Part shown: one piece after another, positions 1 to 64,000 of the stretch
How positions within the stretch are numbered: position 1 is the stretch's first letter
Layout: each line of letters starts with the position of its first letter
NCBI GenBank assembly: GCA_013298595.1
Contig: JAAFIG010000017.1
Location: 19,802-83,801 of the forward strand
Source of the DNA: Deinococcales bacterium
GTDB lineage: Bacteria; Deinococcota; Deinococci; Deinococcales; JAAFIG01
DNA: 64,000 bases
Direction: 5' to 3'
Made by a program: the position numbers and the translations under genes
Notes under the pieces: model-generated
Seen by the model: only the letters and a program-made list of their open reading frames with translations
What the model was told of the DNA's origin: nothing
Database searches by the model: none

Positions 1-13
1 CCGCTTAAAGGAT

Positions 14-403
14 ATGCCGTACCCTCGAAATTTTTTTGCTTATATTAAAGATGCCGACACGTTCGCAGCCGTGTACTTAGCCGATGCCAGTGGGATCGCA
101 CCGTATGTTGAAATGTTTACAATATTTCCAAAGCCAATCGCAGGAAAAATCGCGGTGCTGACCTCGAGTGCGAGTTTAATCGAATTAGACCCCAGCCCCG
201 AATTACATTTTTTGCATTTCCCAGATAAAGCTGTCGAAGCGGTTTTTCAGTTGCATCGCAGCAAAGTGGTTGAACTGAGTGCGATCAATAAACCCGCTCG
301 TAAACCCGAGCATTTTGATGCGGCTTACTTAGAAATTTGGAATGCCAATTATCAAAACTGGATTGCTCGAGGTGTGCTGAAAAAGGTTGAGGGAACATCA
401 TGA
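14..403 (+). CDS. hypothetical protein (129 aa)
   Basis: Small soluble protein that I do not recognise. The start ATG at 14 follows AAAGGA at about 7 nt, a good Shine-Dalgarno match, so the gene is probably complete at the window edge. There is no signal peptide, membrane segment or cysteine motif. The C-terminal half is rich in aromatic residues (YLEIWNANYQNW). It lies upstream of another unrecognised small gene on the same strand, separated by a palindromic repeat. Function unknown. Confidence 0.6.
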   Translation: MPYPRNFFAYIKDADTFAAVYLADASGIAPYVEMFTIFPKPIAGKIAVLTSSASLIELDPSPELHFLHFPDKAVEAVFQLHRSKVVELSAINKPARKPEHFDAAYLEIWNANYQNWIARGVLKKVEGTS

Positions 404-420
404 ATGCGTTAAACGCAGGG

Positions 421-520
421 AAAACACAGCGGTCTGCGCCTACGATAAATCCTTTGGTTGTTTTGCTGCTTGGGAGACCACAAGGGTCTCCCCTACGAGA
501 AATCCTTGGTTTGGACTCGA
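421..520. repeat. palindromic intergenic repeat (GTAGGGG family)
   Basis: Gap between two small genes. It holds a perfect 8-bp inverted repeat (GGGAGACC at 472-479, GGTCTCCC at 485-492, 5-nt loop) continuing into CCTAC, so the minus strand reads GTAGGGGAGACCCTTG. On either side are two imperfect direct repeats (CCTACGATAAATCCTTTGG near 440 and CCTACGAGAAATCCTTGG near 493). A similar GTAGGGG palindrome lies at 17580-17603. This looks like a REP-like dispersed element rather than coding sequence. Confidence 0.5.
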
Positions 521-527
521 GGGGCGT

Positions 528-881
528 ATGACCAAAGCCGATCATCCTGCGGGCGAACCAATTGCCTTTAAGCTCTTGCAAGGCTTTCTCTGGCATCCTC
601 AGACACTTTCTGAGGGTGTTTCACTACCTACAACCTTACCAAGTGGCGCGATGATCGTTATGGACACCATCCAAGCACCTTTTGCATTCTTTGAAGATGG
701 CACATGGACAGGTACACAAATTTTTTATCAACTGACCATCCTCGAGATTTTTGAAGATTGGCTCGAGAATGATCTGATTGCAGCTCGAGCCTTACTTGCC
801 TCACAAGAACTCGATCCGATTCTCAATGCCACACCTACGGGTGTGGGTTGGAGTTTATCTGAGGATTTACGTCCGGCTTGA
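528..881 (+). CDS. hypothetical protein (117 aa)
   Basis: Unrecognised small protein. The frame is open from 387, but the upstream part runs through the palindromic repeat. The ATG at 528, with GAGGGG about 5 nt upstream, is therefore preferred. The sequence has an acidic/aromatic stretch (LEIFEDWLENDL) and no signal peptide or obvious motif. Its 3' end overlaps the 3' end of the convergent DUF454 gene by 47 nt. Function unknown. Confidence 0.45.
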   Translation: MTKADHPAGEPIAFKLLQGFLWHPQTLSEGVSLPTTLPSGAMIVMDTIQAPFAFFEDGTWTGTQIFYQLTILEIFEDWLENDLIAARALLASQELDPILNATPTGVGWSLSEDLRPA

Positions 882-1269: not shown

Positions 1270-1343
1270 GTGCCAAGAATCTCGTGTTTAAAGCCGCAAA
1301 ACGTCCCGTGTAAACTGTAACGAGCGGTACGATTGACTCAAGA

Positions 1344-1958: not shown

Positions 1959-1965
1959 GGTCGGT

Positions 1966-1981: not shown

Positions 1982-3283
1982 ATGTTTGATCTTCTCATCC
2001 GTGCTAAGAATCTACAAATTGCTGTTGATGGCGAAAAAATTGTGGCAATTGCTGAAGAAATTCTCGAGCCAAGCAAAACTGAATTTGATGCTCGAGATTG
2101 GGTGGCATTGCCGGGGGTGGTGGATGCCCATGTGCATTTCAACGAACCCGGACACGAGGATTGGGAAGGCATTTACTCTGGCTCGAGTGCCTTAGCAGTA
2201 GGTGGTGGCACAGTGTTTGTGGATATGCCACTGAATTCGATTCCTGTCACGACAACAGCCGCAGCTTTGCAAAGTAAACTCAGGTGCTTAGCGGCTTCGA
2301 GCCTCACCGATTACGCTGTTTGGGGTGGGCTAACCCCCGATAGTTTGCCGCATCTCGAGGCTTTAGCAGCTGGCGGAGTGATGGGTTTTAAAGCATTTAT
2401 GAGCGGCAGTGGTTTACCCGAATTTGATCGTGCTGACGAAGATACATTACTCGAGGGGATGCGAATTGCTGCCAGACTGGGTTTGCCTGTGGCAGTGCAT
2501 GCCGAATCGGAGCAGATGACCAATCAATTAACCAGTGCCGCTCGAGCCAGTGGTAAAACAAGTGTTCGGGATTATCTGGATTCTCGTCCGATAGCAGCCG
2601 AACTCAAGGCTATTGAGAGCGCTATTGCCATGGCTGCCGAAACCAAGTGTGCCTTGCATATTGTGCATATCTCGAGTGCGGCGGGTGTGGAGTTGGTCAG
2701 TGCAGCTAAGCAAAACGGTGTGGATGTGACAGCTGAAACTTGTCCGCATTACTTGTGGTTTAACGAAACTGACCTCGAGGACATTGGAGCAATCTTAAAA
2801 TGCGCCCCACCAGTGCGAAGCCAAGCTGAACTCGAGCGTTTATGGGCGGTGCTCGAGCAGATTGATATTCTCGGCAGTGACCACTCCCCTGCCCCACCCA
2901 GTATGAAAACCGCTGCGGATTTTTTTCAGATTTGGGGAGGGATTTCAGGGGTGCAAAGTACGCTTGAAGCCATGCTGACAGCCGCTCAAACTCGGGGTAT
3001 AACGCTCGAGAGCGTGATGCAAAGACTGAGTACAAATCCTGCACAGCGCTTTGGTTTAGCCAACAAAGGCAAACTCGAGGTTGGGTTTGATGCTGATGTT
3101 ACCCTGGTTGAACTCAATAAACCTTGGACGCTCGAGGCAAAGCACTTGCATTATCGTCATCGCCAAAGCCCTTACCTTGGTCAAAGCTTCTCGGCTCGAG
3201 TACAACGCACCCTTCTGCGAGGCAAAACCATTTGGGATGGACACGACCTAGGCATACCAAATGGCAAATTTTTGCGACCCTGA
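1982..3283 (+). CDS. allB: allantoinase (cyclic amidohydrolase)
   Basis: Allantoinase-type amidohydrolase of 433 aa, which hydrolyses allantoin to allantoate in purine/ureide nitrogen scavenging. Visible metal-centre residues are His50 and His52 (DAHVHFNEPG), Lys137 as the carbamylated lysine (GFKAFMS), His173 (VHAES), His229 (VHISS) and Asp300 (GSDHSPAP). Full-length TIM-barrel arrangement. A dihydropyrimidinase or dihydroorotase role is less likely because the motif spacing and SDHSPAP match AllB. No allantoate amidohydrolase or other uricolytic gene is adjacent. Predicted leaderless: TACAAT, 6 nt, ATG. The gene contains 14 CTCGAG sites. Confidence 0.88.
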   Translation: MFDLLIRAKNLQIAVDGEKIVAIAEEILEPSKTEFDARDWVALPGVVDAHVHFNEPGHEDWEGIYSGSSALAVGGGTVFVDMPLNSIPVTTTAAALQSKLRCLAASSLTDYAVWGGLTPDSLPHLEALAAGGVMGFKAFMSGSGLPEFDRADEDTLLEGMRIAARLGLPVAVHAESEQMTNQLTSAARASGKTSVRDYLDSRPIAAELKAIESAIAMAAETKCALHIVHISSAAGVELVSAAKQNGVDVTAETCPHYLWFNETDLEDIGAILKCAPPVRSQAELERLWAVLEQIDILGSDHSPAPPSMKTAADFFQIWGGISGVQSTLEAMLTAAQTRGITLESVMQRLSTNPAQRFGLANKGKLEVGFDADVTLVELNKPWTLEAKHLHYRHRQSPYLGQSFSARVQRTLLRGKTIWDGHDLGIPNGKFLRP

Positions 3284-5263: not shown

Positions 5264-5306
5264 GACTTGACAGGCTCGAGTTCAGCCCGTAACATTCTCG
5301 AGATGT

Positions 5307-5381
<75 letters not shown>

Positions 5382-5660: not shown

Positions 5661-5869
5661 CTTGTAATTCAAGTTAAAGTATAACCATCTATGAAAACTT
5701 TTTACCCTCAAACTTTGCATACAGTACATGCTGTGCTGTATGCCACTTTCAATAATAACAGATATAGTAGGCTCAAAAAAGAGATTGATGTTGTAAGACA
5801 TAAATCAATCGCCAGCAATCTGTGTTGGGTATTTACGATACAGTTCACACACAATTTCTTGGGGGTTCA
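5661..5869. other. intergenic region before the defence cassette
   Basis: AT-rich gap between the integrase remnant and the helicase gene. Short open frames cross it but none has a credible start or composition. No clear -35/-10 pair was identified. There is no CTCGAG between 5297 and 6353, unlike the rest of the window. Confidence 0.4.
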
Positions 5870-8800
5870 GTGAATATTTTTGATTTCCGTGAAGGTGTGA
5901 TTAAAGATTACAGTACGTATGTAACCTCGTTTGTCCATATTCGTGATCGTGAAATTCGTGAATATGTCGAGCAGCATTTAAGCGATGGTACTTTCTGGCC
6001 CGATCCTTTGGTGCAACTCAATCCCAATTTCACCAGTGGGGGTAGCATTCAGGGTTTGGTTGACGCTGGGACTTTGCACTTGAGGTGCGCTGAATTGTTT
6101 ACTACTCCTCCGCAAAACCAAGTGCCAATTCATTTACATCAGCATCAAAAAGCCGCAATTGAATTAGCCAAGCAAGGGTTGTCGTATGTGGTGACCACTG
6201 GCACAGGTTCAGGAAAGTCTTTAACGTACATCATTCCTATTGTGGATCATGTTTTGCGCCAAGGCTCTGGTCGTGGAATCAAAGCGATCATTGTTTATCC
6301 AATGAACGCGCTTGCCAACAGTCAGTCTGAAGAGTTAGAGAAGTTTATAGGCTCGAGTTCTGAAGTGCGTTTTGCGCGTTACACAGGGCAGGAAAGCGCT
6401 GAGAAGAAAAAAGAAATTATTGCTAATCCGCCCGATATTTTATTGACCAATTACATGATGCTCGAGCTGATTTTGACGCGCATGGACGAAGCTCGTTTGG
6501 TTGAGAGTGCCAAAGACTTGGCTTTTTTAGTCTTTGACGAGTTGCATACTTACCGTGGACGGCAAGGCGCTGATGTTTCGTTGCTGATTCGTCGTTTGCG
6601 TGAGCGCCTTGGAACAACCCAGACCATTTGCGTGGGGACAAGCGCTACGATGTCCTCGAGTGGTTCATTTTCGGAGCGGCAAGCGGCTGTGGCGGGTGTG
6701 GCAGCTAAAATTTTTGGTGTGCCAATCGCGGCGAACCAAGTGATTGGTGAAACCCTCGAGCGGGTGACCAAAGGGGCTGTAGGCGTTTTGGACTTAAAGC
6801 AAGCCCTTGGTGTTGATGTACCTGTGTCTTTCGAGGCGTTTATTGTTGACCCAGTGGCTTCGTGGCTCGAGCAGCAGATTGGTTTGATTGAGCGGTATGG
6901 TCGGTTGGAACGAAATGCTCCCAAAGCTATTTCTGGTAAGTCGGGTTTGGCTTCAGACCTGAGCAAATTAACGGGTATTAATCAAGGGCAATGCAAAGAC
7001 ATGATCGAGCAGCGCTTGTTGAGTGGGGTAAAGTTGCGTCACCCTGTCACGGGTCGTGCGGTGTTTGCGTTTCGTTTGCATCAGTTTATTTCTAAAGCCA
7101 GCACGGTTTATGCTCCGCTGACCATGATGGTTAAGCGTTTGGAGCATCTGACCTTGCAAGGACAAATTTTTGCACCAAATTCTGACCGTGGGTTAAGGCT
7201 GTATCCGCTCGAGTTTTGTCGCAATTGTGGGCAAGAGTATTACAGTGTGCGACGCACAACGTTGGATTCACAGGACATTTTTATCGCCCGTGGTGGAATT
7301 TTAAGCGAAGAAGGCAGCAGTGATGATGGGTATTTATTTTTGGGTGATTGGTCTGATGATGTGTCTCGTTTACCAGAACACTGGCTCGAGGAAAAAAATG
7401 GGCAACTGAAAATCAAATCAAGTCATAAGCGCGATGTTCCTGAAATCCTGCATGTCAATGGTAAGGGCGAGGTTGGCACGGGGTTACAGGCGGCGTTTGT
7501 GTCTGCCAATTTTAAGTTTTGTTTGTGTTGCGGTGTGAGTTATGTCGGGCGCACTGGCAAAATGACCAAACTGGCTACCCTCTCGAGCGAAGGGCGTTCC
7601 ACTGCCACCACCCTGATTAGCATGGCTGCCGTTCAGGGTTTGCGGCGTTCGGATTTGGCACCGAAAGCCCGTAAATTATTGTCATTTACCGACAATCGCC
7701 AAGATGCTTCGCTGCAAGCTGGGCATTTCAATGATTTTGTGTTTGTGGCTTCGCTTCGGGCTGGGCTTGCCGCAGCCTTGAAGCACCAGTCGCTCGAGCA
7801 TGACACAATTGCCAAAGCGGTGTTTGAAGCGATGCACCTCGAGTTAAATGATTTTGCTTCGGATACCAATGTGCGTTTCAGAGAGCGTGACCGTACCATC
7901 AAAGTTGCCCAAGACGTAATTGGCTATTCGTTGTATACCGATTTAGCCGAAGGCAAACGCCTGACCTTGCCGAATCTCGAGGCGGTGGATTTGGTGCGTT
8001 TTTCGTACCCGTACTTAGAAGAAATTTGTCAGAGTGAGGAATTTTGGGTTGGCTTACATCCAGCTTTGTCACATCCTAGAGCCAATGTCGAGCAGTACCG
8101 TTATGAAGCAGCTCGAGCTTTGCTGGATTGGATGCGTCAGCATTTGGCGATTAAAATTCCGTACTTGGAACGCGAGTGGCTTTCGCGCATGGTTTTGAAC
8201 ATGGGTTTGTTGCGCGAGGACAGCCCACTTTATATTCCATCGGATGAACAGAATAAACTTGATGCTGCCACCGTGGTGGCACTTGGCTCGAGAACCAGCC
8301 AGAATTATGATGTGCTGAACTTGGGTCCAATGAGTGCCTTGGGTAAGTACCTGATGCGTCCCAGCACACTCAATTGGGGTTCGCCACTCAAGCAACTAGA
8401 TGCACAGCAATTGCTCGAGGGATTGTTCAAAGCACTATCGGAGTTTATTGAAGCAGTGGATGACAATGCCTATCAACTCAAAGGCACTGCTTTTCTATGG
8501 CACGCTGGCGAGGGAACAGAGGCTTTCAGGGATACGTTGCGGGTGATTCGCCCTGAAAACAGCGACCCACCAAGGGTCAATCCATTTTTTCTTGGGTTGT
8601 ACAGGCAGCCCTCGAGTCACTTTAAGAACTTACAAAGCGCTGAACACACGGCTCAGATTCGCTCAGATGAACGTGAAAAACGCGAACACCAATTTCGTGA
8701 GGGCAATCTGCCCGCGATGTTCTGTTCACCAACCATGGAACTCGGGGTTGACATTGCCGATTTGAATGTGGTGCATATGCGAAACGTGCCACCAACTCCA

Positions 8801-10906
8801 GCCAATTATGCACAGCGCTCAGGTCGAGCTGGTCGTGGTGGAGAACCTGCTTTGGTGCTGACGTATGCCACCACAGGCAATAATCATGACCAGTATTTTT
8901 TTCGTCGCCCAGCGTTGATGGTGGGTGGTGCAGTCACCACACCGCGTTTGGATTTAAGTAACCAAACCTTGTTGCGTTCGCACCTCCATGCGTTGTGGTT
9001 GGCTGAAACAGGGCAGAACTTGCCCAGTTCACTGGCTGATATTCTCGATATGAACGGCGAAGAACCCAGTTTGGAGTTGCTCGAGGAGATCAAAAAAGTA
9101 TTTGCTTCGCCACTGGTCTGGCAGCGCAGTGTGACTCGAGCAAGGCAACTGCTCGAGCATTTAGGTGTGGATTTACGCAGCACCACTTGGTTTAATGATT
9201 CTTGGCTCGAGCAAACTTTGCAAGCCGCACCTTTTGAATTTAATAAAGCTTGTGATCGTTGGCGTGAATTGTACAAAAGTGCGTTATCGCAACTGAATTT
9301 GAACAATGGTGTGCTTGCCGATGCCAGTAAACGCCATTGGCATGAAACTGCTAAGCGTTTGCACAGTGAAGCCAACATTCAACTGGCACTACTGCGAAAT
9401 GATGAAGGTGAACAATCCGATTTTTACACCTACCGCTATTTGGCTTCGGAAGGTTTCCTGCCCGGTTATAACTTTGCAAGGTTGCCTCTCTCAGCGTACA
9501 TTCCTGGGCGGCGAGTTGGCAAACAGGCTTCGGATAGTTATTTGTCGCGTCCAAGGTTTTTGGCAATCAGTGAATTTGGACCGAATGCAATTGTTTACCA
9601 TAACGGGGCGAAGTACGAAGCCCATAAGGTGATTGTGCCAGCCCGAGGCGAAACCAGCGAACTCCCTGTGACCAGCGCTCAGCGTTGCGAGCAGTGCGGT
9701 TACTTGCACTTTGGTACGCCCAGCGACTTGTGCCAGAATTGCCATACCAAATTGCCGCCGCCTCAAGTCAATTTGTTTCGTATGACTTCGGTGGCTACCC
9801 GTCGGCGTGAACGAATTGGTTCGGATGAAGAGGAACGTCAACGCATTGGTTTTGAAGTGCAGAGTGGTTTGCGTTTTGCAACCCGAGGTGGGCAGTCTGA
9901 CAGGCTCGAGATGCTTGCCCGAACCGACCAAACCGATTGTCTGCGTTTGACCTATGGTGATGGTGCGACCTTGTGGCGCATCAATTATGGTTGGCGTAAC
10001 CGCAGTAACAAAAACGAGCTTGGATTTTTGTTTGACCCTGAGACTTCGCAGTGGTTGACTCAGAAGAAGCTCGAGGAGAAACAACGCGATGCTGTAAAGC
10101 GCGAAGTGCATGTGCAACGGGTGATTCCCTATGTGGCGGACACCCGCAATGTGCTGCTGATCGAACCACCAACTGCCAGTGATGCCAATACCATGGTGAC
10201 CCTGATGAGCGCCTTAAAAAACGCAATTCAATTGGTCTATCAACTCGAGGACAGCGAATTGGCAGCCGAGGTGCTGCCGAATGCTCAGCAACCACGTCAG
10301 ATTTTGTTGTTCGAGGCTTCTGAAGGTGGAGCTGGGGTGCTACAAGATTTGCTGTTGCAAGCAGGGAAGCTACCCGAAGTGGCTCGGCGGGCACTCGAGT
10401 TGCTGCACTTTGAGCCAAGCACAGGCGAAGACGAAGGTCATGCCCTCACCACAGGTGAGCCTTGTGTGGCAGCTTGTTATGATTGCTTGATGACTTACGG
10501 CAATCAGTCGCATCATGAAAAACTGGATCGTTTTAAGGTCAAGAATTTGTTCTTGGCACTGACCCAATGCCATCTCGAGTCAGCGCAGCCAAGCAGCAGC
10601 AGCCCGTTGGATGATTTGCAACGCGCCTGTCTGCGTCAACTCGAGCGTGATTGGTTGGATATGTTGGTGCAAAAGCGTTTGCGTTTGCCGAGCCAAGCCC
10701 AAGCGAGGCTCGAGCAGTACGATGCTACTGTGGATTTTTTGTATCACCAAGAAGCCTCCGTGATTTTCATTGGGCAGCCACAGCCTGCGCTGGTGGACAA
10801 ACTCGACTTAGCGGGTTTCACCGTGATTGTCTTTGCCGAAGACCCCAACTCTTGGGCAGGCGTTTTGCAGCGTCACGCATTCTTATTTGGAGATGGTCAT
10901 GTTTGA
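5870..10906 (+). CDS. giant DEAD/DEAH helicase with DUF1998-type C-terminus (DISARM DrmA/DrmB-like or DruE-like)
   Basis: 1678-aa superfamily 2 helicase, predicted to act in anti-phage defence. The frame is open from 5822, but GTG at 5870 follows GGGGG and gives [20 protein letters not shown], the usual N-terminus of this family. Walker A TGTGSGKS is at 110-117, DELH at 223-226, then GTSATM, and motif [10 protein letters not shown] at about 982-989. Several Cys pairs (CRNCGQ, CLCCG, CEQCG with CQNCH) suggest zinc binding, and the C-terminal [14 protein letters not shown] near 1530 is typical of DUF1998. The combination looks like DrmA and DrmB fused, or Druantia DruE. The stop overlaps the next start by 8 nt. 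Confidence 0.85.
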
Positions 10907-13700
10907 TATTGGCGCGATGGTCAAAGCTCGAGGGCGTGATTGGGTGGTGCTGCCGGGTAGCGACAAAGATTTTTTAATCTTAAAACCACTTGGTGGCAGC
11001 GACGCTGAAATCACGGGTTTGTACGCAGGTGCGGGTGGTGAGACGGTGCAAGCGGCTTCGTTTGATTTACCGCTCGCCAATGCCTTTGGCTCTGCCAGTG
11101 GCGCGAAACTGATGGTTTCAGCCGCGAAACTAGCCATTCGCAGTGGGGCAGGACCTTTTCGTAGCCTTGGGCGTTTGGGTTTTGAGCCTCGTTCGTATCA
11201 ACTTGTGCCGCTTTTAATGGCTTTGCGCCAAACCCCAGCGCGGTTATTGATTGCTGATGATGTTGGTATTGGCAAAACCGTCGAAGCCGCCCTGATTGCT
11301 CGAGAACTGTTTGACCGAGGTGAAATTACTCGTTTTGCGGTGCTTTGCCCACCGCATTTGTGTGGGCAGTGGGTGGTTGAACTAAGTCAGAAATTTGGGT
11401 TAGAAGCCGCCAGTGTGCTGCCAAACACCACCAAGCGGCTCGAGCGGGATTGCAACGTTGGACAGAGTATTTTTGAGCGTTACCCGTTTGTTGTGGTCAG
11501 CTTGGATTTGGTGAAAAGTGAACGTTGGCGCGAGGATTTTTTGCGCCATGCTCCAGAACTGATTATTGTGGACGAAGCTCACGCCAGTGCCGACAATCAG
11601 AGCGCCAGTCAACGCCATCAGCGTTACAGCTTGCTCGAGAAAATCGCGGCTGACCCTGAACGGCATTTGTTGTTGGTGACAGCCACGCCGCACAGTGGCA
11701 AAGAAGAGGCATTCACCAGTTTGTTAAAACTCCTGAACCCAGAACTGGCAGCTTTTTCACTCGAGCAGCGCAACAGCAACCAAGAACGAATCCGCACGAT
11801 TCTGGCAAGGCATTTGGTGCAACGCGGACGCAAAGATGTACAGCAATTCTTGCAGCAAGACACACCTTTTCCGCAGCGTTTGGACAGCGAAATCCAGTAC
11901 CATCTGCACCCAGAGTACGCTCGTTTGTTTGCTGATGTCCTCGAGTACGCCCGTGAAAGCGTGCAGGTGATGGGTGAAACCCAGAACCGCACCCGGATTC
12001 GATGGTGGGCAGCTTTGGGTTTGCTTCGCGCCCTCTCGAGCAGCCCGCAAGCGGCGGCTGCCACCCTGCGCGAACGGGCATTGAATGCCGATGAAACCAA
12101 TCCAGATTTGATCGAAGCTCTCGGAAGAGAATTGGTTTTTGACCCTGATTCGGAAAGCGACAACCAAGACCTTGGCTTAGGAGCGCAAACCGAAACCGAC
12201 CAAAACAGCCCTGCCACACTGCGTTTACTCGAGCTTGCCAAACGCGCCGAAGGTTTGATTGGCGAAGCGGATTATAAATTGGTGCTGCTGACCAAGCAAA
12301 TTCAGCAACTAATCAAAGAGGGGTTTGCACCGATTGTGTTCTGTCGTTTTATCGCCAGCGCCGAAGCCGTGGCAGCACATTTGGCAACCCACTACAAACA
12401 GGCAACGGTTGGTGCTGTCACTGGGCGTTTAACCCCCGATGAACGCATGGAAGCTGTGCAGCGCTTAACCGAAGCCGAAACTCGAGTGTTGGTTGCCACC
12501 GATTGCTTATCCGAAGGGATTAACTTGCAGCATGGATTTAACGCCGTGATTCATTACGACCTGCCGTGGAATCCCACCCGCTTGGACCAACGCGAAGGGC
12601 GGGTAGACCGTTACGGACAACGCGCCAGCACTGTTAAAGTTCTGACCCTGTACAGCCAAGACAACCGCATTGACCAACTGATTCTGGATGTCTTGGTGCG
12701 TAAACACCGCAAAATCCGTGAAACCCTCGGTACGAGCATCCCCGCACCCGAAGAAGCCGAGAGTCTGCTCGATACGCTGCTGGCTCGGTTGCTCGAGCAG
12801 CAAAACCAAGAAGCTGTACAATTGCCGCTTCTACCCGAAGTCGAAGCCTTTGAAACCAAATGGCGCAACGCTGCCGAAGGCGAGAAAAAATCTCGGAGTC
12901 GTTTTGCCCAGAACACGATTCGCCCCGAGGAAGTCAGCCAAGAACTCGAGGATGTGCGTTTGGCGCTGGGCGATCATCAAACCACCAAGGATTTTGTGCT
13001 TGGCGCATTGCAAGGCGCAAAGGTGATTGTCACACCCAAACCCGATGGCAGTTACCAAACCGATCCAAGCCAAATTGATGTGCGCCCAGAGTTCAAGGAT
13101 TTCCTGAGCAGCGCCAAGACGTTTCGATTTGATACGCAACTACAAGCCAAAGTTCAGAATTTAGGACGCAACCACCCGCTGATCGAACAACTTTCCAGCA
13201 CCGTTCTAGGGCAAGCCCTCGAGCAGCCACATGATGCTACCGCCAAACGGGTTGGTGTGATTCGTTGCGCTGTTCCAACCCAAACCACGTTGTTACTACT
13301 GCGTCATCGGTTTCACCTGAGCGGACGCAAAGGCAACCGCACTTGGCAAACCCTATCCGAAGAACTGGACTTTGTGGCGTTCACAGGCAGAAGCGATAAT
13401 CCCACATGGTTAGACCCAATTGCCACCCAAGCCCTGCTTGAACTCGAGCCACTGGATAACCTGAGCGCAACCCAAAAAGAAGACCGCCTGACCCGTACAT
13501 TAAGCGAACTGAGCCTGCACACTCAGCACCTCAGTGCCAGAGCCGCACAACGCGCCACAACACTGCTCGAGGCGCACGAACGGGTGCGCGGCGCAGCCAA
13601 AGGCTTGGGTGTGACCTACGGCATTGAACCGCCCACCAAACCCGATGTGCTAGGTGTGTATATTTTCTTGCCCGTACCAAATCTAGGAGTTGCCTCATGA
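10899..13700 (+). CDS. SNF2-like helicase (DISARM DrmD-like)
   Basis: 933-aa SF2/SNF2-family ATPase. The ATG at 10899 is preferred over more upstream in-frame starts because GGAG lies just before it and the protein then begins [20 protein letters not shown]. Motifs: DDVGIGKT with Lys126, DEAH at 225-228, LVTATPHSG, and helicase motif [13 protein letters not shown] from Gln564. The length and the C-terminal extension after the helicase core resemble DrmD of class 1 DISARM. It overlaps both neighbours (8 nt upstream, 4 nt downstream), so the three genes are translationally coupled. Inferred role: DNA translocation or remodelling in restriction of unmodified phage DNA. Confidence 0.83.
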
Positions 13701-16700
13701 ACCAGCCTTTATTGCATCATCTGACCGTGCATGGACTGGGTTTCACCACCGATTTTCTATTGCAACTCTCCGACCGAGCGCAAACCAGTAAACTCGAGCA
13801 TACCCGCCCCGAAAGTTATGACTTACCACCCAAAACCACGCTCGAGGAAGCCATTCAAGATGCTTGGGATGATGCCCGTAAACACTGGAAAAAACACCAA
13901 GACCACCAAACCGATGTCTGGACTGGCTGGCTGCGTCCACTCCTGAAAATCCTTGATTACAGCCTCATCAGCGCCCCAACAGGCACGAAATTCGCGGTGC
14001 GTTACCAAACCGAAACAGGTGAAATCCCCGTGCATTTTAGTTTATTTGACCTTGACCCTGTGAACACCGAAACAGGCTCGAGAATCAGTCCGCACGGGAT
14101 TCTGCAAGGGCATTTGAACACCACCCCCAACCAACTTTGGGGATTGGTCTGCAATACCGAAAAACTGCGTTTGCTGCGCGATAACGCCCAGATGACTCGA
14201 GCTGCGTATCTTGAATTTGACCTGAGCGAAATCATGAAAACCGAGGACACCAAAGCCTTTCGGGTGTTGTGGTTGCTGCTGCACCGCTCGAGGTTCAAGA
14301 ATGCTCAGCAAAGCATCTTGGAAAACTGGAACAGCCGAGCCAACGAAGAAGGTGTCAAAGCTCGGGATGACCTGCGCGACCAAGTGAAAACCGCGATTGA
14401 ACACCTCGGCACAGGTTTTTTGCAACACAACCCAGAAATCCACGCCCAAGTCAAAACCAGCAACGCCGAACTGAGCAACCTTTACCGCGAATGCCTAAAA
14501 CTGATTTACCAAATGGTGTTCTTATTTGTGACCGAAGACCGCGATTTGTTGTTTGCCAAAAAATCAGACAATACCTACACCGCCAGCGCCGAAACTCGAG
14601 AACGTGCCAAGCACTACCTGACCCGCAGCATCCGCACCAAAGCCAGCCGCACCAAAGGCAACCCCCTGCACACCGATGCCTACATGGGATGGCAAACCCT
14701 GATTGGGCATCTGCGCGGCGGATTTGCCCCACTTGGACTGCCCGCCCTCGGCAGCCATTTGTTCGCCCCAAACCGCCTCAGCGCCTTAAAGTTACCCAAC
14801 AATTTCTTTTACAGCGCCATCCACGCCCTAAGCGAAATCAGCACCGATAATACCCGCCGCCCAGTCAATTACGCAGGGCTGGACTCCGAAGAACTTGGCA
14901 GCATCTACGAAAGCCTGCTCGAACTCGTACCAAGCATCGAACCCGGAGGCAGATTAACCCTCGAGACACTGGCAGGTAACGAACGCAAAACCACAGGCAG
15001 TTATTACACCCCAAGCAGCCTGATTCAACTGCTGCTCGAGAGTGCGCTTGACCCTGTGATACAAGAAGCCACCAAAAACAAAACCACACCCGAAGCAATT
15101 CTAGCCCTAAAAAACCTAAAAATCATAGACCCAGCTTGTGGGTCTGGACATTTTCTAATTGCTGCTGCAAGGCGAATAGGCGCAAAACTAGCCGAATTAG
15201 AAGAAGACACCAGCATCCCCAGTCCAAGCGCCCTGCGCCGCGCCACCCGCACGATCATTGCCCATTGTATTTACGGCGCGGACATCAACCCAATGGCAAT
15301 CGAACTTGCCAAAGTTGCCCTGTGGCTCGAGGCACAAGATGCGGGTAAACCACTGGCGTTCTTGGATCATCGGTTAAGAGTCGGTAACAGTTTACTTGGC
15401 ACCAGCCCCGAACTGATGTTCGCACCCGACAGCATAACCGAACGAAGCAAAACCAATAAAAACGATGTTATTACCACCACCAGAACCACCCTGCATTTAC
15501 CCAACGAAGCCTTTGCCGCCATCGAAGGCGACGATAAACCAACCGTAGCCGCTTTGAAAAAAAGCAACACCAAAGAACGCGAGCATTATGTCGAACTGGC
15601 AATTAACGCCACCATGTTCGACTTTGCCCAAACCAACACCAACGCCATTTTTGCTGCTTACAAAGAACTGGATGCGATTGAACCAGATTCACTCGAGGAA
15701 GTCAAACGCCAAGAAGCCAAATTCGATGAGATTCTGCAAAAAACCGAATTACAACAAAGTAAACTGCTTGCCGATGCGTGGTGCGCTGCTTTTGTGACAC
15801 CCAAAACCCCAGACAGCCTAAAAATAACCACCACCATTCTGAACCAGTTGCTACAAAAACCAAGCGCCCCTGAACTCGAGCCAATCCGAGACTTGGTGCA
15901 AAGCACCGCCAAGCAATACCAATTTTTGCACCCGCACATAGAATTTGCTGATGTCTTCACCGCCACCCAAAAAGGCTTTGACTGCGTTCTAGGCAACCCC
16001 CCGTGGGAAGCGCCAGAAGAAAACAAAGAAAACTCAGTTTTAGAAAATAGAATTATTTATGGCTTACAACATTTTGTAAATAATTCCAATCGCTTTGAAT
16101 TGACTTCTGGAGGGAAAAATCTATATTTATTTTTTACCGAACTGTCAACTAATTTACTCAAAGAATCAGGTAATTTGGGTATTATAGTTCAAACAGAAAT
16201 AATTCAATCCAAGCCCGCAGAAAGGATTTCTAGTTACCTTGTGAAAAGTAAAATACTGAAATCTTTGTACGATTTTGAAAATAAAAAAGTATGGTTTCCT
16301 GCTATCGATTCAAGATTAAGATTTTCGCTAATTTCAATATCAAGAACAAATACTAAAAACTCACAATTTGTGTTTGATATTACGAGCCTAGATGAGATTA
16401 AACAGCCAGAACGAATCATTGACCTAAGCTACGAAATTTTTTCAAATGCTTCCCCTTCCCGCTTTAGTATTCCAGCTTTCAAGAATAGTAAGTCAGCCAA
16501 GTTGTTTTTGACTATGGCTGCTCGATTACCAATGATGGCTTCAGACAACTCAAGTCTATCTGGAACTTTGATGTTTAACTTTGAAGCCAGCGACAAAGCC
16601 ATAAAAATGCAAAGTAATGGCACTCAAATTGAAAACACCTACAACACTTATGATGGCGAAAACATACACCAATTTGAGTTTCAAAGAAAAGGTTCAAATG

Positions 16701-17422
16701 AAGCCGATGCGCCATTTGTTACTGAATTCTTAATGCCTAAACCTTTTGTTAATGAAAAATTGACAAAACTGTTTGACTGTATCCCGACTTGGATTCTGGT
16801 TTTGCGTAGGCAAGCTCGAGGCAATGATTCATTCGTAGGAATTTCGGCGATCATCCCAACTGCCGCAGTTGAAGGCAGTCTATCCGTCATTAAGATTAAA
16901 AACAACTCACCAGTTTTAGCGGCAACCACAGTGGCGAATTTTAATTCTTTCTGCTTCAATTATTTAGTCGCCTTGAGAATTTCTGGACCAAATGTGAATA
17001 AAGGTGTTTATGAACAGATTCCAATTGTTTTTAACAACGAAACACGAATTCTTAGCTCAGTGATACCTTTTATTATTCCCCGCGTCCTCGAACTCACCTG
17101 CACCGCCCACGACCTCAACGGCTTCGCCACCGACCTCGGCTACACACAACAACCCTTCACCTGGAACACAGAACGCCGCTTCTGGCTACGCGCCGAACTC
17201 GACGCACTCTACTTTCTGCTCTACGGCATCGCTCGAGCCGACGTGGAATACATCATGGATACCTTCCCAATTGTGCGCCGCAAAGACGAAACAGCCTTTG
17301 GGGAGTACCGCACCAAAAACGCCATCCTCGAGATATTCGATGCCCTACAAGGCTTGGGCTTAGAGCGCCTGCTCGAGTATCAGAGTCGGGTGGAGAATGT
17401 GGCGGGTGGGTGGAAACCATAA
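13697..17422 (+). CDS. Eco57I-type N6-adenine DNA methyltransferase (DISARM DrmMI-like)
   Basis: 1241-aa gamma-type adenine methyltransferase. SAM motif [13 protein letters not shown] is at about residue 478, [19 protein letters not shown] follows, and catalytic motif IV NPPW is at 767-770. The roughly 290-residue gap between motifs and the long N-terminus (a region of about 470 residues with no nuclease motif I can see) match large Eco57I/DrmMI/PglX-like enzymes. Residues of about 775-1130 (16020-17090) form the presumed target-recognition segment. That segment is AT-rich with one CTCGAG, against 11 in the preceding 2.2 kb, suggesting domain exchange. The ATGA overlap with the helicase indicates one operon. 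Expected role: marking self DNA. Confidence 0.85.
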
Positions 17423-17496
17423 TTTGATGCGGCTCGAGGACATAAGCAAAAGGGGGTCTACGCGGCGCAGACCCCTCCGTCTCGCTGCGCTCGCCA

Positions 17497-17530
17497 CCTC
17501 CCACTACCTTTCGGTAGGGGAGGCTTTTTT
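17497..17530 (+). terminator. terminator of the helicase-methyltransferase operon
   Basis: CCTCCCACTACC pairs with GGTAGGGGAGG around TTTC, followed by CTTTTTT. It lies 75 nt after the methyltransferase stop. Confidence 0.75.
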
Positions 17531-17579
17531 GAGTCAGACACGATTTTTGAGTTCACAGTAAAGCAATGAAAAACCAACC

Positions 17580-17603
17580 GTAGGGGCGGGGCTTGCCTCG
17601 CCC
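17580..17603 (+). repeat. GTAGGGG palindromic repeat
   Basis: GTAGGGG followed by a 9-bp near-perfect inverted repeat (GGGCGGGGC, TT, GCCTCGCCC, one mismatch). Same layout as the palindrome at 472-496 on the other strand, so these are probably two members of one dispersed family. Confidence 0.5.
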
Positions 17604-17671
17604 ACTGGGAGATTACTGCGTAGACGGACTTGAAATTGCGTTCAGTTTCGTGTATTTTTCTAAACAACAAC

Positions 17672-17713
17672 ATCCGCCACGCCCCTTTGTGGGCGCACCA
17701 GGGCGGATTTTTT
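17672..17713 (+). terminator. second terminator-like hairpin
   Basis: ATCCGCC (17672-17678) pairs with GGCGGAT (17702-17708), with an inner GCCC/GGGC stem and a run of six T residues at the end. It insulates the mcrB region from the upstream operon. Confidence 0.65.
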
Positions 17714-17790
17714 ATGACGACTTAGGCTGAGGCGGTACGCTCGAGCATAAATTTGGTTATGAGCAAGTTTCCACGAGTGAGCGCCGACAA

Positions 17791-17813
17791 GTATGTGCAT
17801 ATTTTGCACATAC
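17791..17813. promoter_or_regulatory. perfect 9-bp inverted repeat (hairpin 1)
   Basis: GTATGTGCA, 5-nt loop TATTT, TGCACATAC. Perfect arms, no T-tract, so it is more likely a protein-binding site or structured RNA/DNA than a terminator. Confidence 0.55.
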
Positions 17814-17831
17814 TGCTTTTCTTGGAAAGAC

Positions 17832-17856
17832 AACTGTTGCAAATTCTGCAACAGTT
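17832..17856. promoter_or_regulatory. perfect 10-bp inverted repeat (hairpin 2)
   Basis: AACTGTTGCA, 5-nt loop AATTC, TGCAACAGTT. Same stem and loop geometry as hairpin 1, including GCA/TGC at the loop, 18 nt further on. Confidence 0.55.
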
Positions 17857-17893
17857 CAAAACCTCGAGCTTGAGGCTTTCACTCTAAATCTTA

Positions 17894-17944
17894 TTTCACT
17901 ACTATAGTGAAAATGACTCTTTGGTGAATTTATCAATTTTCACC
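17894..17944. promoter_or_regulatory. paired TTTCAC/GTGAAA inverted repeats (operator-like)
   Basis: TTTCACTA-CTA-TAGTGAAA is a perfect 8-bp inverted repeat at 17894-17912. GGTGAA (17923-17928) and TTCACC (17939-17944) form a second one with the same half-site. They sit just upstream of the TATACT element at 17957-17962, a position typical of repressor operators. Confidence 0.5.
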
Positions 17945-17956
17945 TATTTGACTTGC

Positions 17957-17962
17957 TATACT
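17957..17962 (+). promoter_or_regulatory. TATACT -10 element before the mcrB stub
   Basis: TATACT, then 8 nt, then the ATG at 17971. The intact mcrB gene has TATAAT with the same 8-nt spacing, so the promoter appears to have been duplicated with the gene start. No good -35 is visible 16-18 nt upstream. Confidence 0.5.
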
Positions 17963-17970
17963 CGAGCCAC

Positions 17971-18054
17971 ATGACCGAACCTGCATTGACTGCACCGCAA
18001 TTTGTTCTAAGCACTCACGGCATCAAAGCCCTTGCCGCCACTTGGTGTGCTTAA
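17971..18054 (+). pseudogene. 5' stub of an mcrB paralogue
   Basis: The 27-codon frame begins MTEPALTAPQFVLSTHGIKA, nearly the start of the intact McrB-like protein at 18827 (MTEPALAAPQFVLSAYGIQA). Similarity fades after about 20 codons and the frame ends at TAA. Most nucleotide differences in the shared part are third-position or conservative changes, so this is the remnant of a once-coding, diverged copy, not a fresh duplication. The metallopeptidase gene begins directly after it. Confidence 0.7.
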
Positions 18055-18056
18055 AG

Positions 18057-18620
18057 ATGCAATCGCCTTTTGCTCAAAGCCTCATCAGCCAATTGAATGA
18101 ACACGAAACACTGTATTTTTTGACAATACTAGAAGAAATAGGAGTAGCACATTTACTTGCACAGCACCCATTGAAAAGCCTCGAATTTTTAGAGACTGTT
18201 GAATTTGAGGGTAGGTCAGTCAATGGTATTTACAGTTTTTTTGAGCAAAGTGTACAGGTTGCCGTTCATCGGGATGAGTCTGAATTTCATGCTGTGTATC
18301 GTAAACAAGAATTTTGGAGCATCAGCAGTTTGGCTACTACTTCTAAGGATGCCATTGCTCGTACTTTAGCGCATGAAATTGGGCATCATCTTCATCATAT
18401 TTTGGAGTTATTGCACCCGCAGTCTTTTCGCGCAACGATTCTTTATCCCCGAAGCAATGGTTTAAGCCAGTATGCCTTGCAGAGCAATCGAGAATACTTT
18501 GCGGAGTGCTTTGCCGCTTTTGTTTATCAAAGAGTCGAGCTTTTCATGGATGATGGCTTTGGCTATGCTATGATGAATCAAAGCCTGAAAGCCTTGGGCT
18601 TAGTGGTCAGGGAACGATAA
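18057..18620 (+). CDS. HExxH zinc metallopeptidase
   Basis: 187-aa protein with a gluzincin-type motif HEIGH at 106-110 (AHEIGHHLHHIL) and a downstream acidic cluster NREYFAECFAAF (Glu146 or Glu150 as third zinc ligand). The EYFAE arrangement recalls lethal-factor-like peptidases and polymorphic-toxin peptidase domains; I cannot fix the family. The ATG at 18057 is the first in-frame ATG; an upstream TTG (18042) lies inside the mcrB stub. There is no signal peptide. The gene has no CTCGAG site, unlike its surroundings, suggesting recent gain. Its stop overlaps the next start by 1 nt. Inferred: effector or accessory of the neighbouring defence module. Confidence 0.7.
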   Translation: MQSPFAQSLISQLNEHETLYFLTILEEIGVAHLLAQHPLKSLEFLETVEFEGRSVNGIYSFFEQSVQVAVHRDESEFHAVYRKQEFWSISSLATTSKDAIARTLAHEIGHHLHHILELLHPQSFRATILYPRSNGLSQYALQSNREYFAECFAAFVYQRVELFMDDGFGYAMMNQSLKALGLVVRER

Positions 18621-18817
18621 TGCTAACACTCGAGAAACTGGTTGTTCAAGAAATGTCTTCTTCAGACTTGGCTAATTATGTCACCTTAGCAAGGTTAGAT
18701 GGTTCTTTAACCCGAGATGAATTTTGGCAAATTATCACAGAACTCAAGTCTCGTGGGACACATCCAGAAGTCTTGGCGGGTGTTTCAGGAGAAGTTCATC
18801 CCAGTTGGCGTTTATAA
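18620..18817 (+). CDS. small hypothetical protein coupled to the metallopeptidase (65 aa)
   Basis: 65-aa acidic/helical protein (MLTLEKLVVQEMSSSDLANY at the start). Its ATG shares one base with the stop of the metallopeptidase gene and CAGGGA lies just upstream, so translation is coupled. The two-gene layout of an enzyme plus a very small partner resembles toxin-antitoxin or protease-inhibitor pairs, which is inference only. The stop codon overlaps the TATAAT element of mcrB. Confidence 0.55.
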   Translation: MLTLEKLVVQEMSSSDLANYVTLARLDGSLTRDEFWQIITELKSRGTHPEVLAGVSGEVHPSWRL

Positions 18818-18818
18818 T
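18813..18818 (+). promoter_or_regulatory. TATAAT -10 element of mcrB
   Basis: Perfect TATAAT, then 8 nt to the ATG at 18827, overlapping the stop codon of the 65-aa gene. mcrBC may therefore be transcribed separately from the metallopeptidase pair. Confidence 0.5.
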
Positions 18819-18826
18819 CTTAGTTC

Positions 18827-27424: not shown

Positions 27425-27432
27425 TTCACGCC

Positions 27433-28191
27433 TCAAGCAAAACTCGAGAGTCCGCGTTGAGATTCGGCTCGAGCAAAAATAAATAATTGTTGGGCGAGTG
27501 GTTCGTTATCTAATGCCTGCATCGCCGCATCATCTTTGCTACGCAGGGCTTTAAAAGCTTTCAGTATAATTTGCTGATCGTGCATGGTGTACCCATCTCG
27601 AGTTAAACCCACTTTATTAATTGTGTAATGCTGAGCTGGGCTGCCATCAGCTAAACTAAAAGGCAAAATATCTCGAGACACTTTAGCGCCCATACCAACA
27701 ATACTATGCTGTCCAATACGACAGTATTGATGTACTGCTACCGAAGCACCAAATCGCACATGATTTTCAACAATCACATGCCCTGCCATTTGCATACCAT
27801 TGACAATAATTGTATGGTCACCAACCAGACAATCATGGGTGATATGCACATATGCCATGATCAAATTGTGATGCCCTATTCTGGTTAGACCACCACCAAT
27901 TGCTGTACCACGATGAATGGTGGTGAATTCACGAATGTCATTATCCGAGCCAATCTCGAGCTGTGTTACTTCACCTTGATATTTTAGATCCATAGGTTCG
28001 CCGCCAAGTAAGGCGTACTTACCAACTCGGTTACGTTCACCAAGGGTAGTGAATTGCAAAATTTGTGCGCCACTTTCCAACACACAACCTGCACCGATTT
28101 TGGTATTGGCTTCAACAATGCAAAAAGCACCAATTCGCACATCCGCTGCAATTTGGGCACTCGAGTCTATAATGGCTGTTGGGTGAATCAT
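27433..28191 (-). CDS. lpxA: acyl-ACP--UDP-N-acetylglucosamine O-acyltransferase
   Basis: 252-aa left-handed beta-helix enzyme for the first step of lipid A synthesis. Hexapeptide repeats run through residues 1-190. The catalytic histidine region is AYVHITHDC, followed by the family marker GASVAVHQYCRIG and the C-terminal helical part beginning NKVGLTRDGYT. Length matches LpxA (about 255-265 aa). The ATG shares one base with the fabZ stop, so the two are coupled. Confidence 0.93.
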   Translation of the reverse strand: MIHPTAIIDSSAQIAADVRIGAFCIVEANTKIGAGCVLESGAQILQFTTLGERNRVGKYALLGGEPMDLKYQGEVTQLEIGSDNDIREFTTIHRGTAIGGGLTRIGHHNLIMAYVHITHDCLVGDHTIIVNGMQMAGHVIVENHVRFGASVAVHQYCRIGQHSIVGMGAKVSRDILPFSLADGSPAQHYTINKVGLTRDGYTMHDQQIILKAFKALRSKDDAAMQALDNEPLAQQLFIFARAESQRGLSSFA

Positions 28192-61410: not shown

Positions 61411-61448
61411 ATGAACCTCCGAATACCTTTAGTCTAACGGATTGTGGT

Positions 61449-62717
61449 TTAAAACATCTGGCATTGCTGCATCACAAATTGGGCAAATAATGAATTTGCC
61501 CAGGCAAACCAACTTCTGGTGTACAAATTTGGGTTGTCTTTATGAAAGCCTTCGTGCATCAAACCTGTGCCAGCATTGGTGGTAGCCAGCATCTCGAGCA
61601 ACATATTTTGTTCATCGGGGTCTTGGCTGGTGATACCTTGCATACATAAAGCAATATGCCAAATGTAATCGGTGGGGGTATGCGGACTACCGATACCTTG
61701 AGCTGCTTTACCAACAAAAAAATAGGGGTTTGTACTCGAGAGTATCGCGGCTCTGGTGCGTTGGTAAATTGGTTCGGCAGCAGAACAAAATCCCAGATAT
61801 GGCGCAGATAATAAACTGGGCACATTGGCATCATCCATGATGTGGTATTGCCCAAGCCCATCAACTTCATAGGCATAAATCTGACCATGATTCGGATGCT
61901 CTACTAAGCCAAATTGTTCGATACCAGCTCGAATCTCGAGCGCTAGTTGTTCGGCTTGAGTTGCTAAAACATCGTTTTGCCAAACGGCTCGAGCCATGCT
62001 TGCCAAATAACCAAGTGTGACACTGGCAAACATATTACTGGGTATCAGATACCCGTACCGACAAGCATCATCTGAGGGACGAAACCCACTCCAAGTCATG
62101 CCTGTAAACCCAACCCTCGAGCCTCGTCCTGCATTGGGTAACGTATCGGAATCGGGCGAATCAAAACGCTGAAAAGCATAAGGCGAATTTTCATGACGTT
62201 GCTCGAGTTTCCAGACGTTAAGAATTTGCCAAGCTGCTTGCAAAAAATTTTGATCCAGATGGTCGGTACGCTTGGTACGTTGCCAAATCAGATATGCTAA
62301 CTCGAGCACACTTGCCAGTGAATCCACTTCGTATTTACGCTCCCAAACACCCGCCTGCATTGGCGTAACATCAGATTGATACCCTTGCCCCGAAGCGGTC
62401 TCGTTAAACGCATTAGCGTAGACATCGAGTAAGACACATTGCACTTGCTTACGCGAAACTCCAACCAGCAAATCTGCCATGTAGGAGTCATGTTCAGCAG
62501 CCAGTAAATACGGACGCACTTGTGCACTCGAGTCGCGCAACCACATCGCAGGAATATCGCCCGTAATGACAAAAACACTTCTATCGGATTGTGGGCGCAA
62601 GGTCGTCTCAAAAGTGTTAAGGAAACATTTAGAGAACATATCTGCGATTTTTTGCTGTGGAATGGTGTCTTGAACTCGAGCAATAATCTGTCGTAACGAT
62701 TGCGGTATTTGTTTCAT
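61449..62717 (-). CDS. glycoside hydrolase family 125 exo-alpha-1,6-mannosidase
   Basis: 422-aa (alpha/alpha)6-barrel enzyme. FVITGDIPAMWLRDSSAQVR, DVTPMQAGVWERKYEVDSL, GMTWSGFRPSDDACRYGYLI and the C-terminal GLMHEGFHKDNPNLYTRSWF are characteristic of GH125. No signal peptide, so mannosides are probably cleaved in the cytoplasm after import. GGGAG lies before the ATG. Downstream in the same run of two sugar ABC permease genes (14 nt gap), which implies uptake and trimming of mannose-containing oligosaccharides. Confidence 0.9.
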   Translation of the reverse strand: MKQIPQSLRQIIARVQDTIPQQKIADMFSKCFLNTFETTLRPQSDRSVFVITGDIPAMWLRDSSAQVRPYLLAAEHDSYMADLLVGVSRKQVQCVLLDVYANAFNETASGQGYQSDVTPMQAGVWERKYEVDSLASVLELAYLIWQRTKRTDHLDQNFLQAAWQILNVWKLEQRHENSPYAFQRFDSPDSDTLPNAGRGSRVGFTGMTWSGFRPSDDACRYGYLIPSNMFASVTLGYLASMARAVWQNDVLATQAEQLALEIRAGIEQFGLVEHPNHGQIYAYEVDGLGQYHIMDDANVPSLLSAPYLGFCSAAEPIYQRTRAAILSSTNPYFFVGKAAQGIGSPHTPTDYIWHIALCMQGITSQDPDEQNMLLEMLATTNAGTGLMHEGFHKDNPNLYTRSWFAWANSLFAQFVMQQCQMF

Positions 62718-62731
62718 TATGCTCTCCCAAT

Positions 62732-63610
62732 TTACTTATTACCACTAAAGGCAACACTTTGCACAAAGTAGCGTTGGGCAAAAACAAAAATCAGTAACAC
62801 AGGTAAGGAAACCACCACATTGGCTGCCATCAGCGGACCGTAATCGGTTTGTTTATTAAAAGTAAAGGCTTGTAAACCCATTTGTACTGTCGCCATATTC
62901 GGGTCGTTAAAAACAATAATTGCCCATAAAAACACATTCCAACCACCTTGAAAGGTAAAAATACCCAAGGTTGCTAAAGCAGGTTGACACAATGGTAAAT
63001 AAATTCGCCAAAAAATAGTCCATTCCGAAGCACCATCCACTCTAGCGGCATCCATTAAATCCTCGGGGAGAGTGCGAAAAAATTGGCGCATAAAAAACAC
63101 TGCAAAAGCCCCTGCTGCACCAGGTAAAACCACTGCCCAATACGAATTAAGTAAACCAAAACCACCTTGCCCTAAAATGTTATTACCACCTGCCAATGGA
63201 AACATTCGCAGGATAATAAAAGTGGGAATCATGGTGACAATACCCGGAATCAGCAACGAAGATAATTTCATGCGAAACAACCAATCTCGAGCTGGAAAAC
63301 GTAATCGAGCAAAGGCATAACCAGCTAAACTGCCCAAAACCAAATTGGAAACCACACCCATCAGTGCCATCAGCGTGCTATTAACAAAGTAACGTCCAAA
63401 AGGTACCAGTGTAAAAGCTTTACCGTAATGCTCGAGTGTCAACCGACTTGGCAACCATTCTATTGGGTCGCGGAAAATATCTTCGTTGGGCTTAAAACTG
63501 GTGATCAACATCCAATAAAATGGTAAAATCATGAGTACCGATAATGCCACCAGTACAGCATAAAATAAGGTTTCTCGAGCCACAACGTAAGGGGTTAATT
63601 TCGATTTCAT
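62732..63610 (-). CDS. carbohydrate ABC transporter permease (MalG type)
   Basis: 292-aa inner-membrane permease. LMILPFYWMLITSFKPNEDI near the N-terminus and the coupling loop EDLMDAARVDGASEWTIF place it with MalG/LacG-type proteins. Six helices are expected. AAGGA precedes the start. Lies between the MalF-like permease and the GH125 mannosidase. Confidence 0.9.
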   Translation of the reverse strand: MKSKLTPYVVARETLFYAVLVALSVLMILPFYWMLITSFKPNEDIFRDPIEWLPSRLTLEHYGKAFTLVPFGRYFVNSTLMALMGVVSNLVLGSLAGYAFARLRFPARDWLFRMKLSSLLIPGIVTMIPTFIILRMFPLAGGNNILGQGGFGLLNSYWAVVLPGAAGAFAVFFMRQFFRTLPEDLMDAARVDGASEWTIFWRIYLPLCQPALATLGIFTFQGGWNVFLWAIIVFNDPNMATVQMGLQAFTFNKQTDYGPLMAANVVVSLPVLLIFVFAQRYFVQSVAFSGNK

Positions 63611-63627
63611 CAGCGTCCTTGTTGGTG

Positions 63628-64000
63628 TTAGGCACCAAATTCAGCATCTTTATTGATGCGGTTGTTGATTAGACTAATCACGAGAATGGCAACGGCTAAC
63701 ACGAATGCCTGCGCCGAGGCATAACCCATCCGCAACTGGCTAAAACCATTGCTATAAATTTGATACACCGCTGTGGTCGTGGCAAAACCGGGTCCACCTT
63801 GGGTCATGGTGTACGCTTGATCAAATAATTGAAAAGCCCCGATCAATGACATAAAAACCACAAAAAATGTGGTGGTTCGTAAACCAGGCAGTGTGATAAA
63901 CCAGAATTGCTGCAATGGCGTTGCACCATCTAAAGCAGCCGCTTCGTACAAATACGGCGGAATGCCTTGTAAGCCAGCCAAATAAACAATGATATTGCCA
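63628..64000 (-). CDS. carbohydrate ABC transporter permease (MalF type), partial
   Basis: 3' part of a MalF-like permease, running off the window end; the start lies beyond 64000. The last 124 codons include YLAGLQGIPPYLYEAAALDG with the coupling loop, then LFDQAYTMTQGGPGFAT. An in-frame ATG at 63981 is internal, not the true start. The stop is 17 nt before the MalG-like gene. Confidence 0.88.
   Translation of the reverse strand, partial: GNIIVYLAGLQGIPPYLYEAAALDGATPLQQFWFITLPGLRTTTFFVVFMSLIGAFQLFDQAYTMTQGGPGFATTTAVYQIYSNGFSQLRMGYASAQAFVLAVAILVISLINNRINKDAEFGA

Follow-up and report, generated by a model that had tools for sequence, protein, structure and literature searches.

CTCGAG in the 64-kb window

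The 64,000-bp stretch of contig JAAFIG010000017.1 analysed here (the window) contains 387 copies of the palindromic hexamer CTCGAG, ca. one per 165 bp, spread throughout its length. The features to which we refer below are as follows. Genic and intergenic counts were obtained with a crude open reading frame (ORF) caller, and sites at gene overlaps were counted once per gene.

1..64000, no strand: CTCGAG, 387 copies (351 in called genes and 37 intergenic).
1982..3283, + strand: gene named allantoinase in the original prediction; 14 CTCGAG in 1,302 bp, with 18 synonymously possible places.
13697..17422, + strand: large adenine methyltransferase gene, Eco57I/DrmMI-like; 15 CTCGAG; belongs to a defence locus.
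18042..18620, + strand: ORF without CTCGAG, an example of a motif-free stretch; 0 sites in 5 possible places.

The original prediction, made from the letters of the window, described CTCGAG as massively over-represented, and this proved correct. Base composition predicts 13 copies, and Markov models of order 1, 2, and 3 predict 6.6, 27, and 126, respectively. Dinucleotide shuffles of the window gave 6.9 ± 2.7 copies (maximum, 15). The order-4 value of 335 is no independent expectation, its 5-mers deriving from the CTCGAG sites themselves. The runner-up among the palindromic hexamers of the window has only 46 copies. Our recounts also agreed with the 14 copies reported for the allantoinase gene and the 11 reported for the first 2.2 kb of the methyltransferase gene.

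As had been stated, the word occurs in all three frames of the genes (213, 73, and 65 copies) and in both gene orientations (194 and 157). Synonymous-codon shuffles of each gene, in which proteins and codon usage were kept, gave only 34.2 ± 5.5 copies (maximum, 48) compared to the 351 observed. Therefore, codon usage does not explain the excess, in line with the earlier remark that codon bias is insufficient. The 37 intergenic copies are located within 7.3 kb.

A tRNA gene (Rfam RF00005, 69 bits) was found at 5307–5378, and the CTCGAG copies at 5275 and 5297 precede it closely on its upstream side. Positions 5822–23133 carry a defence-type locus with a mixed Druantia/Dpd/DISARM-like gene set, whose helicase shows its best match to DruE (E 1e-101). 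This locus also encodes a DpdE-like protein (E 4e-216) and a DrmMI-like methyltransferase (E 2e-76), and one gene has weak REase_II matches. The methyltransferase at 13697..17422 is a part of this defence locus and not a common writer of CTCGAG.

Distribution of CTCGAG in the genome and the phylum

The genome of the window (G000; 4.58 Mb in 68 contigs) contains 27,159 CTCGAG, one per 169 bp (ca. 5.9 per kb), compared to 15 for GAGCTC, the reversed control. Thus, the excess is present elsewhere in the genome as well. The closest named record to the 433-aa protein encoded at 1982–3283 is from a metagenome bin of a Deinococcales bacterium (74% identity), and this record itself has 120 CTCGAG in 16.9 kb.

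CTCGAG is the sole strongly enriched palindromic hexamer in G000. Twenty-one of the 64 palindromic hexamers are below 10% of the order-2 expectation (e.g., TTCGAA, 0 of 188; TGGCCA, 2 of 269), and G001, G003, and G012 are likewise low in most of them. Thus, G000–G003 and G012, which accumulate CTCGAG, show an extreme avoidance of most GC-rich palindromes, including GAGCTC (15 in 4.58 Mb of G000), TTCGAA, and TGGCCA. Given the roughly six methyltransferase genes detected, present-day restriction systems do not obviously explain this depletion.

To survey the phylum, we counted CTCGAG and GAGCTC in 111 genomes; the sequence analysed beyond these counts comprised 864 kb of G000 and 24–320 kb from every other genome of family f1 or genus g11. 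The four genomes of family f1, to which the window belongs (G000–G003), have 26,600–28,200 CTCGAG each. In the neighbouring family f2, genus g11 shows a similar density (21,868 in 3.5 Mb and 14,690 in 1.9 Mb), genus g8 has 13,552 in 3.8 Mb, and G004 has 683 in 2.3 Mb, below its GAGCTC count of 1,525. Genus g7 (genomes of ca. 2 Mb), presumably the competent genus Thermus, has CTCGAG and GAGCTC in about equal numbers and no excess, and plasmid MP1 of D. radiodurans shows none either (8 CTCGAG in 50 kb). A milder excess was observed in several genera, including g13, presumably the cultured genus Meiothermus. In the sampled stretches of G059 and G015, 54–63% of Leu-Glu pairs are spelled CTCGAG compared to 13–17% expected, and Leu-Glu is 1.6-fold enriched. 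With counts ranging from near saturation in f1 to no excess in G004, g7, and MP1, the trait is graded across the phylum and lacking in some of its members.

In G008 (f2, genus g8), the excess is nearly limited to frame 0 (265 copies vs. 30 and 27), with Leu-Glu at 2.0-fold, whereas f1 fills all frames. Among the matches listed, three viral contigs (L305, L280, and L350) have 4.8–5.9 CTCGAG per kb and no GAGCTC, and may carry the same bias.

To see at which level the excess arises, we compared intergenic DNA, codons, and dipeptides in the 864 kb of G000. Between genes, CTCGAG is as dense (5,810 per Mb) as it is overall (5,724 per Mb), and 1,128 intergenic copies were found where 19.6 were expected. 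CTC-GAG spells 66% of Leu-Glu pairs, compared to 1.7% predicted from codon usage. The Leu-Glu dipeptide itself occurs at 2.34 times the expectation from amino acid composition, and Glu-Leu at 0.97 times. Of the synonymously possible places in the two remaining frames, 65% and 39% are filled, as counted in the first 464 kb. The distortion of Leu-Glu is similar in G001, G002, G003, G012, and G016 despite G+C contents of 0.45 to 0.59, a range across which the density of CTCGAG is nearly constant (ca. 5.7–6.5 per kb); in the low-motif genome G004, Leu-Glu is at 1.19. The equal intergenic density, the share of CTC-GAG, and the Leu-Glu excess with normal Glu-Leu indicate that the force targets the DNA word, rather than codons or RNA, and that it overrides and alters protein sequence.

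CTC and GAG are preferred codons in the high-GC relatives, where CTCGAG is expected for 13–36% of Leu-Glu pairs and codon usage accounts for a part of the excess. The excess as a whole might be regarded as a side effect of codon usage, of amino acid composition, or of dinucleotide bias. However, the expected share in G000 is just the 1.7% given above, and the gaps between expectation and observation in the synonymous shuffles of the window genes (34 vs. 351) and in intergenic DNA (1,128 vs. 19.6) make such an origin hardly credible. For G000, codon, dinucleotide, or trinucleotide bias is ruled out by the shuffles and Markov expectations.

Exclusion zone and turnover of the sites

We measured the spacing of CTCGAG pairs in six genomes (9,857 gaps). 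The pair correlation was 0.27 at 6–9 bp, 0.59 at 18–21 bp, and 0.93 at 21–24 bp, and it was close to 1 at larger distances. At fixed amino acids, the probability that a Leu-Glu pair is spelled CTCGAG rose from 0.25 beside another site to ca. 0.74 past 40 bp. Exclusion at 12–21 bp was clear in five of the six genomes. No regularity was seen above 21 bp in spacings up to 1 kb, where the sites are independent; even spacing for coverage was thus not seen above 21 bp. Generic 6-mer inverted repeats with four G/C were not depleted at 9–21 bp, which rules out hairpin avoidance as the source of the short-range exclusion. Around CTCGAG, a longer hidden motif was not found, just mild flank preferences (C at +1 and less C at +3). 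The simplest reading of the ca. 21-bp exclusion is a footprint of about two helical turns.

Such a footprint would also be left if selection favoured the sites bound by an abundant chromosome-organising or replication/repair protein, each bound site bringing a small benefit and sites being added wherever the sequence permits, except within one footprint of another. The equal density inside and between genes, and its persistence at about 5.7–6.5 per kb throughout the G+C range, are consistent with this explanation. However, selection for even coverage is not seen, as there is no regular spacing above 21 bp up to 1 kb, and each of very many near-equivalent sites would have to be visible to selection. 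We consider this explanation somewhat unlikely.

The original prediction proposed comparing orthologous sites for conservation. At Leu-Glu positions in shared orthologs, CTCGAG was present in both genomes 25 times for G000 and G001, 28 times for G000 and G002, and 33 times for G000 and G003, compared to 24.3, 27.1, and 30.3 expected if the two were independent. The state of a site in one genome therefore does not predict that in another. In these modest numbers, there is no sign of site conservation: the density is maintained, and the individual sites are not. Per gene, 56% of the possible places are occupied, with small spread.

Leu-Glu pairs one transition away from CTCGAG were enriched, namely CTT-GAG (203 vs. 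33 expected, 6.1-fold) and CTC-GAA (242 vs. 87, 2.8-fold), and CTG-GAG was low (8 vs. 35). An excess of transition neighbours is expected if sites mutate away and re-form; the sites thus look as if they decay through transitions and then form again. Among the synonymous neighbours, the central CpG and the outer C show similar absolute excesses (ca. 170 and ca. 155, respectively), so that decay of 5-methylcytosine at CpG is not indicated. Since no one-off neighbour was wiped out, a converter limited to one mismatch type is not indicated either.

The motif-poorest genes include a transposase-like gene, a D12 methyltransferase gene, a defence-type E2/ThiF/JAB gene, and a UvrD-type helicase gene, which fits their being recent arrivals. 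A motif-poor island of G000 (L064 8041–12184, contig C3) encodes an E2/ThiF/JAB protein (Prok-E2_A, ThiF, Prok-JAB) plus neighbours, and is probably a recently acquired CBASS-like defence system. A pilin-like protein operon (L061/L171, G000:C1:36545–42130) is also nearly without CTCGAG; its products are rich in Ser/Thr/Asn and poor in Leu-Glu.

Relation to known systems and possible origin

The original prediction named HIP1, a highly iterated palindrome (HIP) of cyanobacteria, as the closest precedent and linked the upkeep of such words to methylation. HIP1 occurs at 0.3–2.7 per kb in cyanobacteria, and HIP1 and alternate HIPs accompany matching methyltransferases (Elhai 2015, PMC4390886). 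By pattern, CTCGAG belongs to the broad HIP class: the word greatly exceeds its Markov expectation throughout the genome and occurs within genes, in non-coding DNA, and in each of the three frames. Like HIP1 (GCGATCGC) and the alternate HIPs, it is a short palindrome in genome-wide excess, kept in related genomes and variable among lineages, poor in apparently recently acquired genes, and persistent over long divergence. The analogy of pattern is therefore good, and the link to methylation is not supported. G000 does not carry HIP1 proper: the word is CTCGAG and not GCGATCGC, CGATCG is depleted to 0.09 of expectation, and the closest named record is from Deinococcales, i.e., another phylum. 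The density of ca. 5.9 per kb also exceeds the range for HIP1. Other differences are that a common methyltransferase was not found and that a 21-bp exclusion zone and a 2.3-fold dipeptide excess are present here; we know of no report of either feature for HIP1.

To look for a writer, we searched G000–G003 for methyltransferases of PF00145, PF01555, PF07669, PF02086, and PF02384 and with an XhoI-type query from G009. All-against-all BLAST served to compare members of the first four families. For PF02384, only the size and place of the matches were considered, and both of the G000 matches were already part of the BLAST comparison. No DNA methyltransferase within the five Pfam families or of XhoI type was found to be common to G000–G003. 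G000 encodes a single cytosine methyltransferase, and close relatives of it are present only in G001 (74%) and G012 (59%). The best phage match of this enzyme is an annotated spyIM methylase (44%), whose specificity is of CCNGG type. Not found in G002 and G003, this enzyme is ruled out as a common writer. These two genomes are 91–92% complete; a gene might be missed in one of them, but its loss from both assemblies is unlikely. Upkeep through methylation, as first suggested, is thus not supported here, the four genomes having equal density and no common methyltransferase among those searched.

XhoI and PaeR7I recognise the identical sequence, but the XhoI-family endonuclease (PF04555) is absent from all four f1 genomes as well as from G012, G016, and G008. 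Restriction normally reduces site counts. The G009 methyltransferase query gave weak partial matches in G000 and G001, a 26% match in G002, and none in G003. With the nuclease absent and the methyltransferase absent or weak, XhoI-type restriction-modification is ruled out. In G009 (L048 1408–2099), a stop-interrupted XhoI-like nuclease gene stands beside an intact methyltransferase gene, and this genome has a moderate CTCGAG excess. Vsr-type very short patch repair is ruled out by the absence of the Vsr endonuclease (PF03852) from G000–G003, G012, and G016.

The author of the prediction also knew of no such element with CTCGAG. A limited, partial search of the literature gave no description of a HIP with this word; Nocardia, however, has an orphan CTCGAG methyltransferase whose motif clusters near dnaA (Blow et al. 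2016, PMC4752239). The six bases are identical; here, however, the word is genome-wide and a matching enzyme was not found.

According to the classical HIP model, a CTCGAG-specific methyltransferase would couple the site to mismatch repair, creating and protecting sites. The enzymes matched to HIPs (PMC4390886) and the Nocardia methyltransferase (PMC4752239) lend this model precedent, and dissimilar enzymes that share this specificity from genome to genome, or further families (e.g., MT-A70), could possibly serve. However, no searched Pfam family provides an enzyme common to G000–G003, the cytosine enzyme of G000 is common only to G001 and G012, XhoI-type methyltransferases are absent or weakly similar in f1, and the similar decay of the central CpG and the outer C shows no sign of 5-methylcytosine deamination. 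We regard this model as quite improbable here.

The DNA uptake sequences of Pasteurellaceae and Neisseriaceae are short words of high genome-wide density linked to uptake (PMC7811141, PMC2346458, PMC3630211). CTCGAG is also a short word of high density and could likewise spread by drive, serving as a self-recognition tag for natural transformation that is preferentially taken up and spread through recombination. Natural competence has been discussed for the related genus Thermus (PMC5529391). On the other hand, CTCGAG is a 6-bp palindrome that recurs about six times per kb, and the known uptake sequences exceed it in length and are directional and non-palindromic. Moreover, repulsion acts only within 21 bp and not at the scale of DNA fragments, and genus g7, our presumed competent Thermus, shows no excess. 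An uptake tag appears quite unlikely.

We tentatively favour, with slightly less confidence than doubt, the explanation that CTCGAG is a HIP-type word, common to an uncultured family of Deinococcales and to relatives of this family, kept by a conversion bias in repair or recombination through a protein that reads ca. 20 bp. A putative protein would read CTCGAG while contacting ca. 20 bp of duplex, so that two sites inside that length could not both count. Each site would have a small advantage, with its odds over the alternatives raised ca. 60-fold in intergenic DNA and ca. 110-fold at Leu-Glu, corresponding to a population-scaled strength of 4 to 5. In our judgement, this advantage would most likely be a conversion bias favouring the CTCGAG strand, and mutation, mainly by transitions, would remove sites. 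We rank such a drive first because one site can stand in for another and the force differs little within and between genes. A fuller version, in which a factor with a ca. 20-bp footprint in a deep Deinococcales-related lineage copies or protects CTCGAG to near saturation independently of methylation, leaving the proteome permanently enriched in Leu-Glu and Ser-Ser and several relatives with the bias in weaker degrees, appears possible but rather doubtful.

Several points weigh against conversion bias. If selection instead favoured, additively, the sites that this protein binds, the pattern would be identical, and the two are not separated by these data. The mechanism is drawn from the pattern alone, and the reader protein is hypothetical. 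The exclusion in G002 is weaker than in the other genomes (0.57 and 0.74). Some low-motif genes, such as the pilin-like operon, may be low from amino acid composition and not from age. In addition, the f1 genomes are fragmented assemblies, probably all metagenome bins, with genes taken from a simple ORF caller.

The origin of HIP words is debated, and the leading model is the methyltransferase link. CTCGAG offers a second, independent HIP case in another phylum, denser and with genomes that range by degrees from no excess to near saturation. It has a measured 21-bp exclusion zone, and no common methyltransferase was found among the families searched. The genera with weaker excess, which we take to include the cultured Meiothermus, would permit bench tests. 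A DNA-level force that shifts protein composition genome-wide bears on any analysis of codon usage, selection, or orthologs in these genomes.

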